From positions 1-34,758 of the forward strand of contig JAPPLW010000032.1 in NCBI GenBank assembly GCA_028819345.1: a stretch of DNA of 34,758 nucleotides, in the 5' to 3' direction. This DNA is from a bacterium. Lineage in GTDB: Bacteria; Actinomycetota; Acidimicrobiia; Spongiisociales; ZC4RG35. Under the pieces are notes generated by a model, which ran no database searches, was not told the origin of the DNA, and saw nothing but the letters and a program-made list of their open reading frames with translations. The translations under genes were made by a program, and so were the position numbers. The first letter of the stretch is position 1. Each line of letters opens with the position of its first letter. Shown in pieces: positions 14,531-19,355 of this stretch.

Positions 14531-16540
14531 ATGAATCGTTTTGAGGTCAAAGCCGACTTCGCCCCTTCGGGCGATCAACCATCTGCGATCTCCTCCCTGG
14601 CCAGGGGTCTGGAGGAGGGCGACCGGTTCCAGACGCTCCTGGGAATCACCGGCTCCGGCAAGTCCGCCACCGTGGCGTGGACCATCGAGAAGGCCCAGCG
14701 CCCCGCGCTGGTAATCGCTCCCAACAAAGCCTTGGCCGCCCAGTTGGCCAACGAGTTCCGCCAGTTCTTCCCGGACAACCGAGTGGAGTATTTCGTCTCC
14801 TACTACGACTACTACCAGCCCGAGGCGTACATGCCCCAGACCGACACTTACATAGAGAAGGACTCCTCCATCAACGACGAGATCGACGGTTTGCGCCACT
14901 CCGCTACATCGGGGTTGATGGTGCGAGACGACGTGATCATCGTGGCGTCCGTCTCCTGCATCTACGGGCTGGGCTCCCCCGAGCAGTACGAGGGACAACT
15001 CCTGCGGCTGATCCGGGGAGTGGAGTTCCCGATGTCCGAGGCGCTGCGCCGGCTGGTGATGCTCCAGTACAACCGCAACGAGGTCAGCCTCACCCGGGGC
15101 CGATTCCGGGTGAAGGGAGACACCCTGGACATCTTCCCGGCTTACCAGGAGCACGTGGTGCGGGTGGAGTACTTCGGCGACGAGGTGGAGCGGATCGTCT
15201 CCCTGAACCCGGTCACCGGAGACGTGATCTCGGAGATGAAAGAGCTTCATGTGTTCCCTGCCACCCACTACGTGACTCCCGAGGAGCGGATGGCCGAGGC
15301 CATCCGGGGAATCCAGCAGGAACTGGCCGGGAGGCTTGCGGAGTTGGAGAGCGAGGGAAAACTGCTGGAGGCGCAGCGGCTCAGGATGCGGACCAACTAC
15401 GACCTCGAGATGATGCGGGAGATCGGCTACTGCGCGGGCATAGAGAACTACTCCCGCTACCTGGACGGGCGGGAGCCGGGAGAACCCCCATACACGCTTT
15501 TGGACTACTTCCCGGACGACTACATAACCATCATCGACGAATCCCACATCACCCTTCCCCAGATCGGCGGTCAGTACGAGGGCGACCGGAGCCGAAAGGA
15601 GGTGCTGGTGGAGCACGGGTTCCGTCTGCCGTCCGCCCTGGACAACCGCCCGCTCCGATTCGATGAGTGGCTGGACCGCACCGGGCAGGTGATCTGCATG
15701 TCCGCCACCCCCGGTCCTTTCGAACGGCAGCGGTGTCCCGAGCCCGTGGAACTCCTCATCCGTCCCACCGGCCTGGTGGACCCCGAGGTGATAGTCCGGC
15801 CCACCAGGGGCCAGATCGACGATCTGCTGGCGGAGATCCGCCAGCGGGCGGTCGCCGACCAGCGGGTTCTGGTCACCACCATCACCAAGAAGATGGCCGA
15901 AGACCTAGCCGACTACCTGCTTGAGATGGGAGTGCGAGCCAGGTACCTGCACTCGGAGATAGACACCCTGGAGAGGGTGCAGATACTTCGGGAACTCCGG
16001 ATGGGCGAGTTCGACGTCCTGGTGGGAATCAATCTGCTGCGAGAGGGACTCGACCTGCCCGAGGTGTCGCTGGTGGCCATCCTCGACGCCGACAAGGAGG
16101 GGTTTCTGCGCTCCGACACGTCCCTCATCCAGATCATCGGCCGAGCGGCGCGGAATGTGGACGGGCAGGTGGTGATGTATGCCGACGAGATCACCTCGTC
16201 TATGGAGAGGGCGATAGGGGAGACCAACCGGCGCCGGAGACGCCAGTTGGAGTACAACGCCCGGCACGGAATCGACCCCCAGACCATCCGCAAGCGCATC
16301 TCCGACATCCTGGAGTTGGTTGCCTCCGAGGCGCCATCGGTGGAGAGACGCCGCTCATCCCGGGCCGAGCGGGAGGTGATCGACTTGACCGGCGACGATC
16401 TCTCCCGGGTGATTCTTTCACTGGAGGAGGAGATGCGGGAAGCCGCGGCCGAACTCCGCTTCGAGTACGCCGCCCGGCTCCGCGACGAGGTGGCCGAGCT
16501 CAAGAAGGAGCGGCGACAACTCTCCCAGATCCTGGCCTGA
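14531..16540 (+). CDS. uvrB: UvrABC excinuclease subunit B
   Basis: UvrB is the damage-verifying helicase-like subunit of nucleotide excision repair, loaded by UvrA and recruiting UvrC. Residues 38-45 are the Walker A motif GITGSGKS, with Ser in place of the common final Thr. The damage-probing beta-hairpin is intact near 90-120 ([20 protein letters not shown]). DESHITLPQ near 337 is the motif II box, and [16 protein letters not shown] near 535 is motif VI. A C-terminal UVR motif that binds UvrC closes the protein ([15 protein letters not shown]). Its 669 residues are full length. It is the last gene of the core block; the next gene is convergent. Confidence 0.97.
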
Positions 16541-16589
16541 TCAAGCTGAAGGTACATTCCTCTTCCATCCACCCAGCAAGACAGGGTGT

Positions 16590-16630
16590 GATGGGAGGCC
16601 CAGCCAACGGCCAGTGCCGACGCTCCCATC
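16590..16630. terminator. Possible hairpin between convergent uvrB and AIPR genes
   Basis: GATGGGAG at 16590-16597 and CTCCCATC at 16623-16630 form a perfect 8-bp inverted repeat around a 25-nt, GC-rich loop. It sits in the 199-bp gap between two converging genes, where a bidirectional terminator is expected. There is no T-tract, so it would be a weak or factor-dependent terminator at best. Confidence 0.3.
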
Positions 16631-16739
16631 CCAACCCAGTCTCTGTTCGCTGGAGCTACCCTGGAAGAAGCCTTACCCTTGGCCCCCCAACTTGACCGTC
16701 TGTCACAAGAGCAGGTCAACAAGGGCCTAGGGGCTGCCC

Positions 16740-17972
16740 TTATAAGGCACTCCTTCGTTCCGCATCGATGAGAGCCAACTCCTTGTAAAGCGAACCCCAT
16801 AGGGCAGGTGATCGACCAGAAGCGTGTAGATCGCGGCCGGTTGTGTTGAAGTGTTCGTAGAAAGCCTGCAACAAGGGCCCACCGGCTTCTGTCCACAACT
16901 CCAACACTTCATCAAAACCGTTGCGCCACCTTACCGGTTGGAGGTCGCCATTAGTGGCTATCGAATTGTCATCGACAACAAAGAGGCGGAATGTCGCCAG
17001 GATTGGGAGTACTGCAGGGCGGCGAAGACGCTTTTCTGAGTCAAGTCCATTTGGAAGGAATGGGAACTCAAAATTCGGCCTGCCATTTCTCTTGGTCTCG
17101 ACCATCTCCAACCGACCATACCTGCCACCTGCACCGGAGGCACCGCCTACCTCCTGCCATCGCCTTTCCGAGTCGTATTGGATCCAATCGTGCAGTTGGA
17201 GTACATCTCGCACAATGGGGATCAGGCGTCGGTACCGCTCCGGGTGCTTTTCGAAGCGGTCCAGCATGGACCTCTTACGGCGGTAGGCATCCACCGGATG
17301 ATTGTGCCGATCCGGATAGCTCGCGATATCGAAACAGGAAAGAATGGCGATGACGTCTACCACATCGATCATCCCGTCTTCGTTCTCGTGCCATGAAATG
17401 CGGTCTGTCCATCCGTCCATTGCGAGTTCGACCTTGAGAAACTCGAATTGTTTGTTGAGGTCAAGTAACGACTTTGCATGAACCTGGATGCTTGTATTGC
17501 GTCCTCCAGCTATGTCTGTTACTAGTTGTTCTCGGGCAAGACCCGTTATTACCTCAAGTTTGATGTATTCGTTGTCGGGGATGGAGTTTTCGCCCTGGGC
17601 CTTCCGGACAATCTCGTAGGAGTGTCCCCCATCGACGATCCCGTAATTGCCCTCCGGAAAGTGCAACTCCAAAACGTCGAGTCCCGGATGGGTAGAAGGG
17701 GCCTTGGTCACTTTCGAAGCAATGAGCGTAAGTCCTCTGTGCTTGAGGTGAAAGCTGCCCGGGATGGTCTCACCTTCCTGGGACAGAGAGCGACCGACCG
17801 TCCGATAAATAGGACGATTGATGTTTTGCTCCCGAGGGTTGGGATCCAATGGGATGTCCATTGGAAGCCTCTTAGCTGGAACCAGCATGAAATGAGTGTG
17901 GGCCCCGTCGAAATTCGGGTCTGGCATCCGCCGTGACCACTTGACGGGAACCTTGACGATGCGATTTAACAT
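16740..17972 (-). CDS. AIPR-family protein (abortive-infection-type)
   Basis: The protein resembles shorter members of the AIPR family, named after lactococcal abortive phage infection. The supporting segments are DPNPREQNINRPIYR, SFHLKHRGLTLIASKV, GNYGIVDGGHSYEIVRKA (the family's DGGHT-like box), a GRNTSIQVHAKSLLDL segment and SCFDIASYPD. The biochemical activity is not settled for this family. I chose the ATG at 17972 because AAAAGGAG ends 7 nt before it; an in-frame ATG at 17978 would be too close. The product has about 410 residues. It sits between uvrB and a catabolic cluster, with lower GC than either, so it looks like an acquired gene in an otherwise core segment. An inverted-repeat operator lies upstream. 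Confidence 0.72.
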   Translation of the reverse strand: MLNRIVKVPVKWSRRMPDPNFDGAHTHFMLVPAKRLPMDIPLDPNPREQNINRPIYRTVGRSLSQEGETIPGSFHLKHRGLTLIASKVTKAPSTHPGLDVLELHFPEGNYGIVDGGHSYEIVRKAQGENSIPDNEYIKLEVITGLAREQLVTDIAGGRNTSIQVHAKSLLDLNKQFEFLKVELAMDGWTDRISWHENEDGMIDVVDVIAILSCFDIASYPDRHNHPVDAYRRKRSMLDRFEKHPERYRRLIPIVRDVLQLHDWIQYDSERRWQEVGGASGAGGRYGRLEMVETKRNGRPNFEFPFLPNGLDSEKRLRRPAVLPILATFRLFVVDDNSIATNGDLQPVRWRNGFDEVLELWTEAGGPLLQAFYEHFNTTGRDLHASGRSPALWGSLYKELALIDAERRSAL

Positions 17973-17984
17973 CAGCATGCTCCT

Positions 17985-18076
17985 TTTGTCGTGCCCGCTA
18001 CCGCGAGCCGTTTTCACTTACTCGCTCCCGGCTCCTGCCGAGGCGATGTGCACAGTATAACATGTGGGCACGACAA
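17985..18076 (-). promoter_or_regulatory. Paired inverted operator and promoter of the AIPR gene
   Basis: TTTGTCGTGCCC at 17985-17996 recurs as its reverse complement, GGGCACGACAAA, at 18065-18076, about 68 bp apart. Read in the gene's direction, the distal copy lies just upstream of a TATACT -10 box near 18050, and the proximal copy directly abuts the AAAAGGAG ribosome-binding site. A repressor bound to both sites, possibly by looping, would cover the promoter and the leader. Autoregulation by the AIPR protein is a reasonable inference. No other regulator gene is adjacent. Confidence 0.55.
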
Positions 18077-18119
18077 ACCTCTTTTGTTACGAAAGGGGGT
18101 TTGCGAGGGAATCCAGCCG

Positions 18120-19355
18120 TCAGGTCAATCTTCCCTGGGTGTCCTTGTAGATCCGGCCGCCCTTGATGACCGCCACTATCCGGTCGGGGTCGGCCAAGGC
18201 TTCGATCTCATCCAGGGGGTTGCCATCCACCAGGATCAGGTCGGCTTCCTTGCCAACCTCGACGGTGCCGATCCGGTCCTCCATGTAGAACAGTTCGGCG
18301 TTGCCGGTGGTGGCGGTGGCGATCGCCTCGGCGGGGCTCATGAAATTGGCCTTGTGAGGCAATTCCCGGCCGCGGCGGTCCTGGAGCGGACCGACGATGT
18401 CCGAACCGGAGCCCACCTTGAGTCCGGTCTCTCCCATGATTTCGAGGCTCCGGTGTACGGCAGACTCGACCGCTTTGAGTTTGGTCAACTGGGCGGGCGT
18501 GAGTCTCGCTCCTTCCGGATCGCCCAGGAGATCGTACTTCACCGAAAGCGTGACAACCGCGAAGGCGTCGGCATCCAGGATTCTTTGAGCCGCCTCCTCA
18601 TCGAGGATGCTGGCGTGCTCGATCGAGCGAATACCGGCGGTGAGCGCCCGGCGGATGGCGTCGGAGGTGTGGCAGTGGGCGAGCACGTAGGTGTGCCAGT
18701 CGGCCGCCGCCTCCACCGCCGCCCGGAGTTCGGCGTAGCTGAACTGGAGGCTGTCGAAGGGATCGGTGGGGGAGAGAACCCCGCCCGAACTGAACACCTT
18801 GAGCTGGGTGGCGCCTTTTCTAAGTTGCTCCCTTGCCGCCCGCCGCACCTCGGCAACCCCGTCCACGATCTCGGGGGTGGCAGAGAGGCCGGGAATGCTC
18901 CCGCGGGGATGGGCGATGTGGTGGGCAGGACGCAGGTCCCCGTGCCCGCCGGTCTGTGACAGCACCGATCCCGAGGGGAGTATCCGGGGGCCGTCGATCA
19001 CTCCCTGCTCCGACAGCCGCGCCCAGTGAGGGTCTAGTCCCCCTGCGTCCCGGACGGTGGTGAAGCCCTCCTGGAGGGTGTTCTCGATGACGCCCCGGAC
19101 GGTGAACACGTAGTCGATCCAAGGCAGGTCTCCGATCCCGCCCGCCGGGTCCACCAGACCCATGTGGACGTGGGCGTCGGTCAAACCGGGCATGAGGGTC
19201 AGTCCGGCGCCGTCGATCACCTGGTCGGGCGAACTTCCCGCCCCAGGTCCGATGTCGCTGATCAGAGAGCCCGACACCGCCACGTCCACACCGGCTCGCG
19301 GTTCGGCGCCGGTGCAGTCCAGGAGTTCGGCGTTGCGGATTACGAGATTCGTCAC
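18120..19355 (-). CDS. Metal-dependent amidohydrolase (prolidase-like)
   Basis: This is a member of the amidohydrolase superfamily, in the group that includes Xaa-Pro dipeptidases and imidazolonepropionase-like enzymes. The metal site is complete: H62-x-H64 (DAHVHMG), K186 (the residue usually carboxylated, in QLKVFSSGG), H227, H247 (SIEHAS) and D319 (GSGSD). The 411-residue length and the C-terminal beta-domain sequence (EVGKEADLILVDGNPL) are typical. The start overlaps the stop of the upstream NicX/M29-like gene by 4 nt (ATGA), so the two are one operon. With a proline racemase-type enzyme and a P5C-dehydrogenase-type ALDH nearby, a role in proline-containing peptide or cyclic-amide breakdown is plausible but unproven. 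Confidence 0.85.
   Translation of the reverse strand: MTNLVIRNAELLDCTGAEPRAGVDVAVSGSLISDIGPGAGSSPDQVIDGAGLTLMPGLTDAHVHMGLVDPAGGIGDLPWIDYVFTVRGVIENTLQEGFTTVRDAGGLDPHWARLSEQGVIDGPRILPSGSVLSQTGGHGDLRPAHHIAHPRGSIPGLSATPEIVDGVAEVRRAAREQLRKGATQLKVFSSGGVLSPTDPFDSLQFSYAELRAAVEAAADWHTYVLAHCHTSDAIRRALTAGIRSIEHASILDEEAAQRILDADAFAVVTLSVKYDLLGDPEGARLTPAQLTKLKAVESAVHRSLEIMGETGLKVGSGSDIVGPLQDRRGRELPHKANFMSPAEAIATATTGNAELFYMEDRIGTVEVGKEADLILVDGNPLDEIEALADPDRIVAVIKGGRIYKDTQGRLT

Follow-up and report, generated by a model that had tools for sequence, protein, structure and literature searches.

The AIPR gene of the window (the whole 34,758-nt stretch of DNA analysed here) is preceded by a leader of two bulged hairpins, which, judging from covariation among its relatives, is almost certainly a conserved RNA element. 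We give an even chance to the reading that the gene is single-gene cargo in a swapping spot, and that this structured 5′ leader is its cognate control partner, bound by AIPR itself. The original prediction for this locus was a two-site DNA operator made of a 12-bp inverted repeat, a candidate that we dropped after tests of conservation and shuffling.

The leader RNA of the window

The minus-strand ORF scores 55.5 bits with PF10592 (cut-off 25), over residues 57–376 of its 425 aa, and by this profile match it is a true AIPR family protein. Its likely start is the ATG at 17972–17970 rather than the GTG at 18017, in alignment with the starts of close relatives (Table 1). TAnnnT-like letters occupy the matching alignment columns of seven close relatives at the position of the window’s TATACT, and transcription would begin at about 18047, at the foot of hairpin 1.

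Table 1. Features of the AIPR locus, in window coordinates.
Feature	Position	Strand	Basis or remark
Variable stretch from the uvrB stop codon to that of the amidohydrolase gene	16541..18119	.	Related genomes differ in what it contains
AIPR gene, 410 aa from ATG at 17972	16740..17972	-	PF10592 and relatives’ starts
Ribosome-binding site AAAAGGAG	17980..17987	-	Sequence reading; 7 nt upstream of ATG
Inner repeat arm	17985..17996	+	Overlaps hairpin 2 and ribosome-binding site
Structured mRNA leader, about 60 nt, two bulged hairpins	17989..18048	-	Covariance model R1 and covariation
Hairpin 2: lower stem 2 bp, bulged A 17992, upper stem 6 bp, loop GGTA	17990..18010	-	
Hairpin 1: lower stem 4 bp, bulged A 18026, upper stem 6 bp, loop AGGA	18022..18046	-	
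Probable -10 box TATACT	18054..18059	-	Sequence reading and TAnnnT-like letters in relatives
Outer repeat arm	18066..18077	+	Just upstream of -10 box; not found in relatives

A conserved block lies between the -10 box and the ribosome-binding site in the window and in seven relatives with AIPRs of 64–68% identity. Six of these eight sequences were aligned; L072 and L076 were excluded, their hairpin 1 being longer and diverged. In the six, both hairpins are built to one plan: an RGNN loop closes an upper stem of 6 bp, a single A bulges out on the 3′ side, and the lower stem measures 4 or 3 bp. Hairpin 1 comprises 10 pairs (100% of cells paired), of which four are changed on both sides, and hairpin 2 comprises nine (96.3% of cells paired), of which three are changed on both sides; the lower stem of hairpin 2 is 3 bp long in four of the six sequences. 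Taken over the whole leader, 98.2% of 114 cells are paired, and neither this value nor the covariation score was reached in any of 500 shuffles. Seven of the 19 pairs have changed on both sides (equalled in 6 of 500 shuffles), and the count of further pair types does not exceed the shuffled level (155 of 500 reach it). Control alignments slid out of register are at most 46.5% paired. The alignment also contains many sense-strand G-U pairs, which favours an RNA structure over a DNA palindrome. The folding energies are unremarkable (z-scores of -0.6 to -1.9 in the window class), so that the case for the leader rests on covariation and architecture.

Against the covariance model R1 the window leader scores 68.4 bits, being itself one of the six seeds (68–80 bits), and it is the only match in the window genome at E values up to 0.01. 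The L072 leader scores 15.7 bits (E 0.23), that of L076 has no R1 match up to E 1, and no match was obtained at E 0.01 in G108 and G022, two of the three AIPR-bearing genomes of the order; R1 misses these leaders because hairpin 1 differs there. Six other genomes of the order, which lack this AIPR, contain seven weak matches, with rough E values of 5e-4 to 8e-3. Hairpin 2 was also matched (21.5 bits, E 0.0067) at the AIPR gene of a viral contig, L152, whose protein is 39% identical. In this contig (2275–3807 and 4004–5164) the AIPR gene with hairpin 2 lies just after a terminase large subunit gene, an instance of phage-borne carriage.

The AIPR leaders searched have no significant match in Rfam 15, the overlaps being at chance level (osmY, E 4.5, for the window leader; KCNQ1OT1_1, E 0.53, for L073), and the abiF family RF03085 was not matched at E values up to 5 for the window leader or up to 1 for 13 loci. 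We also considered a regulon, and rejected it: the motif RGWAGCGGGCA has 20 matches in the genome, and only the AIPR copy is directly followed by a ribosome-binding site.

Leaders of remote AIPR genes

Remote AIPRs (about 25–36% identity) have leaders with a like hairpin shape and other sequences. These were counted with a strict descriptor (a tetraloop, an upper stem of 5–7 bp, one bulged base on the 3′ side, a lower stem of at least 3 bp, and at least 9 bp in total). In the 90 nt before the AIPR start, the descriptor was found at 33 of 82 genes and its 5′-bulge mirror at 3 of 82, although the definition of the descriptor, including its 3′ side, was itself suggested by reading the leaders that were later counted. 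The corresponding background was 2.4% in 4812 random segments of the same loci and 3.0% in 2460 dinucleotide shuffles. Since the descriptor imposes perfect pairing on the hairpins that it picks, we do not count their pairing as evidence.

Free folding of the 90-nt leaders with RNAfold gave a similar asymmetry. A 3′-bulged hairpin was present in 48 of 93 AIPR leaders and a 5′-bulged one in 5 of 93, compared with 7.0% and 6.6%, respectively, of random segments (n = 1794); the minimum-energy folds of the other 45 leaders have no hairpin of the 3′-bulged kind. With a tetraloop required, the counts are 38 for the 3′ bulge and two for the 5′ bulge. In the same loci, leaders that belong to other genes show the 3′ bulge in 4 of 142 cases and the 5′ bulge in 7 of 142. 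Among 11 held-out loci, whose leaders had played no part in framing the descriptor and which do not include L071 (already counted), L172 (from the genome of L115) or L158 (a copy of L157), the strict descriptor was found at two and the folded hairpin at four, and the mirror form at 0 of 11 by either method.

Near-copies, recognized by eye from their leaders, were dropped before counting (L122, L132, L134 and L154, and L158 too in the folded count), while some near pairs were retained (e.g., L073/L084 and L110/L112). L100 was left out because its start could not be resolved, and L168–L173 repeat earlier loci. Loci of one clade are not independent, so p-values from such counts would overstate the significance. 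With these caveats, the counts support a leader RNA that extends to AIPRs beyond the class of the window.

A second class of hairpin (GATG...GTATC), mostly from Clostridia, was aligned in 11 sequences, including two (L118 and L126) that the descriptor had not picked; 97.9% of its cells are paired, and its covariation score was reached in none of 500 shuffles. Six of its nine pairs have changed on both sides, which was equalled in 3 of 500 shuffles. When hairpin classes were placed on a tree of 78 AIPRs, with labels assigned by eye and 39 of the 78 rows unlabelled, they required 13 changes as against 36.5 with shuffled labels, and none of 200 shuffles was as low. Thus the hairpin sequences appear largely to follow the AIPR protein clades; L133, with a class D hairpin, falls inside the class B protein clade.

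DNA-level control is also seen in this family. HTH_3 domains occur in 30 of 72 ORFs upstream of AIPR, and a divergent HTH gene was present at all three of the first Firmicutes plasmid loci examined and at three of four examined later; the many AIPRs with such a gene indicate that control at the DNA level exists too. The notion that HTH regulator and hairpin are alternatives to each other was rejected, as they are not exclusive (the upstream ORF has HTH_3 in 10 of 29 cases with the hairpin and in 18 of 39 without it). The AIPR gene of the window has the amidohydrolase and uvrB genes as its neighbours, with no HTH gene alongside. In two closely related Acidimicrobiia loci, the divergent gene upstream of AIPR encodes a Swt1-like HEPN protein (L073:2784–3809 and L084:2784–3512, both on the minus strand).

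Proposed control by the leader, and alternatives

If AIPR and leader are indeed partners, control might work as follows. The two-hairpin leader would begin with the first transcribed base or close to it and end beside the ribosome-binding site, and AIPR would bind the bulged hairpins of its own leader. This binding would block translation of the AIPR mRNA, or the leader RNA would hold AIPR inactive, or both. We infer that infection would upset the balance between protein and leader and so release AIPR, the toxicity of which is likewise presumed. AIPR itself is probably the binding partner, because the hairpins change with the AIPR clade and yet keep their shape. A bound partner also seems to be needed because the Shine-Dalgarno sequence is partly free in the bare leader: its computed probability of being unpaired is 0.50 in the window and 0.27–0.82 over the 18 leaders scored out of 19, the strings having been chosen by pattern and possibly wrongly in L074, L075 and L084.

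The same arrangement may be more general, although we regard this extension as doubtful. Short AIPRs of several phyla could form an RNA-gated immune family, in which each clade recognizes its own 3′-bulged leader as translational operator and RNA antitoxin at once, and the effector is set free when a phage attacks RNA or translation. AIPR would then gain a defined trigger and a cognate RNA. In any case, a leader that follows the protein clades supplies a candidate ligand, an operator that can be mutated, and a prediction for each clade.

A precedent is AbiF, where, according to the available portion of PMC12373285, an RNA (RCd22) with two abiF motifs upstream of abiF neutralizes AbiF by direct binding. 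Here, too, the leader of a presumed Abi gene carries conserved hairpins, a pair built alike within a single short RNA that directly precedes the gene, and control by AIPR binding, if true, would make AIPR a second Abi family, after AbiF, governed by RNA hairpins. The resemblance might also be closer than we propose, with the leader released by cleavage or termination as a stable small RNA and serving AIPR in trans, either as its antitoxin or as its cofactor, in the manner of AbiF or of type III systems. We consider this unlikely, as hairpin 2 stands only two bases before the ribosome-binding site in the window, leaving no room for a terminator, and the leader is unmatched by RF03085. Nor do the repeat families listed for 16500–18200 include an adjacent tandem repeat such as type III systems have; the window’s hairpins are alike in shape and unlike in sequence, which is not the tandem-repeat RNA of a type III toxin-antitoxin pair.

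Less likely still is a translation switch in which a host or phage protein binds the hairpins and turns AIPR translation on or off. The model for this is AbiD1, for which the accessible text of PMC2661086 describes phage Orf1 binding to stem-loops in the translation initiation region of abiD1, and the position of hairpin 2 beside the ribosome-binding site would suit it. However, AIPR as the partner would account more readily for a leader that varies from one AIPR clade to the next. The abiD1 hairpins are described in the same text as weak and AU-rich, with the upstream one sequestering the ribosome-binding site, whereas those of the window class are strong, covarying, and placed before it. The hairpins might instead stabilize the mRNA in a general way, or resist RNase at its 5′ end, and so have no specific partner; they do lie near the predicted end, but we judge this very unlikely because the 3′ bulge and tetraloop persist in several clades despite changes of sequence, and are infrequent before other genes (the 4 of 142 given above). 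A metabolite riboswitch or thermosensor, which a structured leader adjoining the ribosome-binding site might suggest, is hardly credible: apart from the lack of a significant Rfam match, the stems and loops are for the most part particular to a clade and do not form one invariant pocket.

There remains the inverted repeat. The repeat exists and its 12-bp arms match perfectly, separated by 69 nt, although the right arm lies at 18066–18077, one base from the predicted 18065–18076. The only two exact copies of the 12-mer in the 2.8-Mb genome are these arms, and a copy with one mismatch, on contig C22 inside the ORF of a second AIPR, looks like chance. As an operator for AIPR or an HTH protein acting as repressor, the repeat would have a parallel in DndB, a transcriptional repressor according to the available part of PMC12704722. 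We nonetheless hold this reading to be highly improbable, since the repeat is neither conserved nor beyond chance. No inverted pair of this kind of at least 9 bp is found upstream of eight relatives (seven at 64–68% identity and one at 39%), the upstream region of L081 having an unrelated, overlapping inverted pair. Block-wise dinucleotide shuffling of the window produced at least one 12-bp repeat with a gap of 10–120 in 26 of 100 shuffled windows (mean 0.36), and given a scan of the whole window the repeat is not beyond chance. The inner arm is the end of hairpin 2 joined to the start of the ribosome-binding site, and half of it is the conserved GGGCAC of the RNA hairpin.

Of the original prediction, the contact of the repeat with the ribosome-binding site is borne out and the coverage of the promoter is plausible (the outer arm is closely followed by a -10-like TATACT), while the two-site operator itself found no support. 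The idea of a control element next to the ribosome-binding site is supported in so far as a conserved one stands before that site, but this element consists of RNA hairpins and not of the repeat. The prediction had proposed searching for the repeat upstream of other AIPR homologs, where it proved absent in all eight examined, and had named as refuting it the gene’s conservation at this place together with lack of conservation of the repeat upstream of homologs; the latter was observed and the former was not.

The AIPR protein and its genomic surroundings

The window AIPR contains the motif DGGHSY and has a helical C-terminal part, and DGGH, N159 and R47 are conserved. We take DGGHSY to stand where DGQHR or DGQQR stands in DndB and DUF262 proteins. 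Pfam gives no match to HEPN, DndB or DUF262 in this protein at E 0.1 and none to the AbiF family, and there is no match in PADLOC, NCBIfam or PHROGs. A structure predicted by AlphaFold from an alignment of 64 AIPRs is of good quality (pLDDT 93.5, pTM 0.87), and neither Foldseek with this model at E 0.001 nor a search of solved structures yielded a match. In a VIA-align comparison, where all Z scores are under 8 and so below the level that stands alone, rows 1–6 are ParB, Noc and PadC domains (Z 6.6–5.5, rmsd 3.2–3.9), and rows 7–9 are BrxU (GmrSD) and SspE, which contains DUF262 (Z 5.0–4.5, with an rmsd near 12 for BrxU). The alignments of rows 1–6 and 9 cover about residues 15–163 of the model, so the N-terminal part of AIPR resembles ParB-type domains with moderate scores, while no sequence-profile link connects AIPR with DndB, GmrSD, SspE or the ParB-CTPase fold. 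This resemblance agrees with published statements, in the parts available, that the N-terminal domain of DndB belongs to the AIPR family (PMC3506569) and that DndB is a ParB-like, ATP-dependent transcriptional repressor (PMC12704722). If it holds, the leader would pair a ParB fold with RNA.

The AIPR is presumably an anti-phage or abortive-infection gene. Like other members of PF10592 (AbiU1/AIPR), it is sporadic and has relatives on plasmids (48 records) and in viral contigs (8 loci). It differs in being short, in lacking a HEPN match and the weakly Mrr-like N-terminus of the second AIPR of its genome, and in having a leader RNA; the accessible portion of PMC3506569 states a HEPN domain at the N-terminus for the family. 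The available parts of the literature describe AIPR genes as frequent in restriction-modification operons (PMC3506569, PMC2292703) and present in a P4-satellite hotspot (PMC9122126), and in those parts the three papers give no tested AIPR mechanism and describe no AIPR leader RNA, the search having covered neither preprints nor most subscription papers. An alignment-based search found 232 AIPR relatives, of which 80 were kept. No relatives came from three viral scans that used single proteins from classes B, C and D, nor from a single-protein search of genome contigs.

As predicted, the AIPR gene is the odd one out at its locus. In all six genomes of the genus, uvrB and the amidohydrolase gene stand side by side in convergent orientation, and AIPR is absent from the gap between them in the five others, as the prediction had proposed to check in related genomes. 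The gap there holds a few tens of bases (G106), an ORF of 70 aa (G109) or DNA 75% identical to it (G107), an XRE-HTH ORF (G110), or a PLD-like ORF with a weak zinc-ribbon match (G108). This supports insertion or swapping of AIPR into the gap, and because the contents vary within the genus, we read the gap as a small swapping spot for single genes in this genus. In other genera the amidohydrolase was beside uvrB at none of 14 loci (L054–L067), with flanks of up to 1.5 kb. This AIPR occurs in three of 138 genomes of the order, counting that of the window, in the same three among 395 sampled from the class, and in the window genome alone among 396 sampled from the phylum.

Some further details of these loci are worth recording. 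Despite the varied single ORFs in the uvrB/amidohydrolase gap, no recombinase is visible there. In G105 (contig C10:90540–92490) uvrB appears as two overlapping pieces, one with an internal TGA, which may be a frameshift or an assembly fault. The AIPR of G108 (66% identical) is located elsewhere, near integrase/HTH_21 pieces; at this locus (L015, G108:C128, 3953–8157) it is flanked on one side by an MT-A70 methyltransferase gene that includes an HTH part and on the other by IS3-like rve/HTH_21 pieces, and the divergent upstream ORF (L076:3029–3919, minus strand) matches the BglII restriction endonuclease family (E 3.3e-22). The AIPR of G022 (L016/L072, G022:C8, 750–2516) is 588 aa long, about 170 aa of them forming a C-terminal extension, and Pfam finds only AIPR in it. 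The second AIPR of the window genome (L017, G000 contig C22, 452–2251, plus strand) is also longer (599 aa, AIPR at 264–427), and its N-terminal stretch is weakly Mrr-like, under the cut-off. It is followed by a gene with a Piwi domain (L017:2510–4453, plus strand; Argonaute-like), and the two possibly form an AIPR-pAgo pair.
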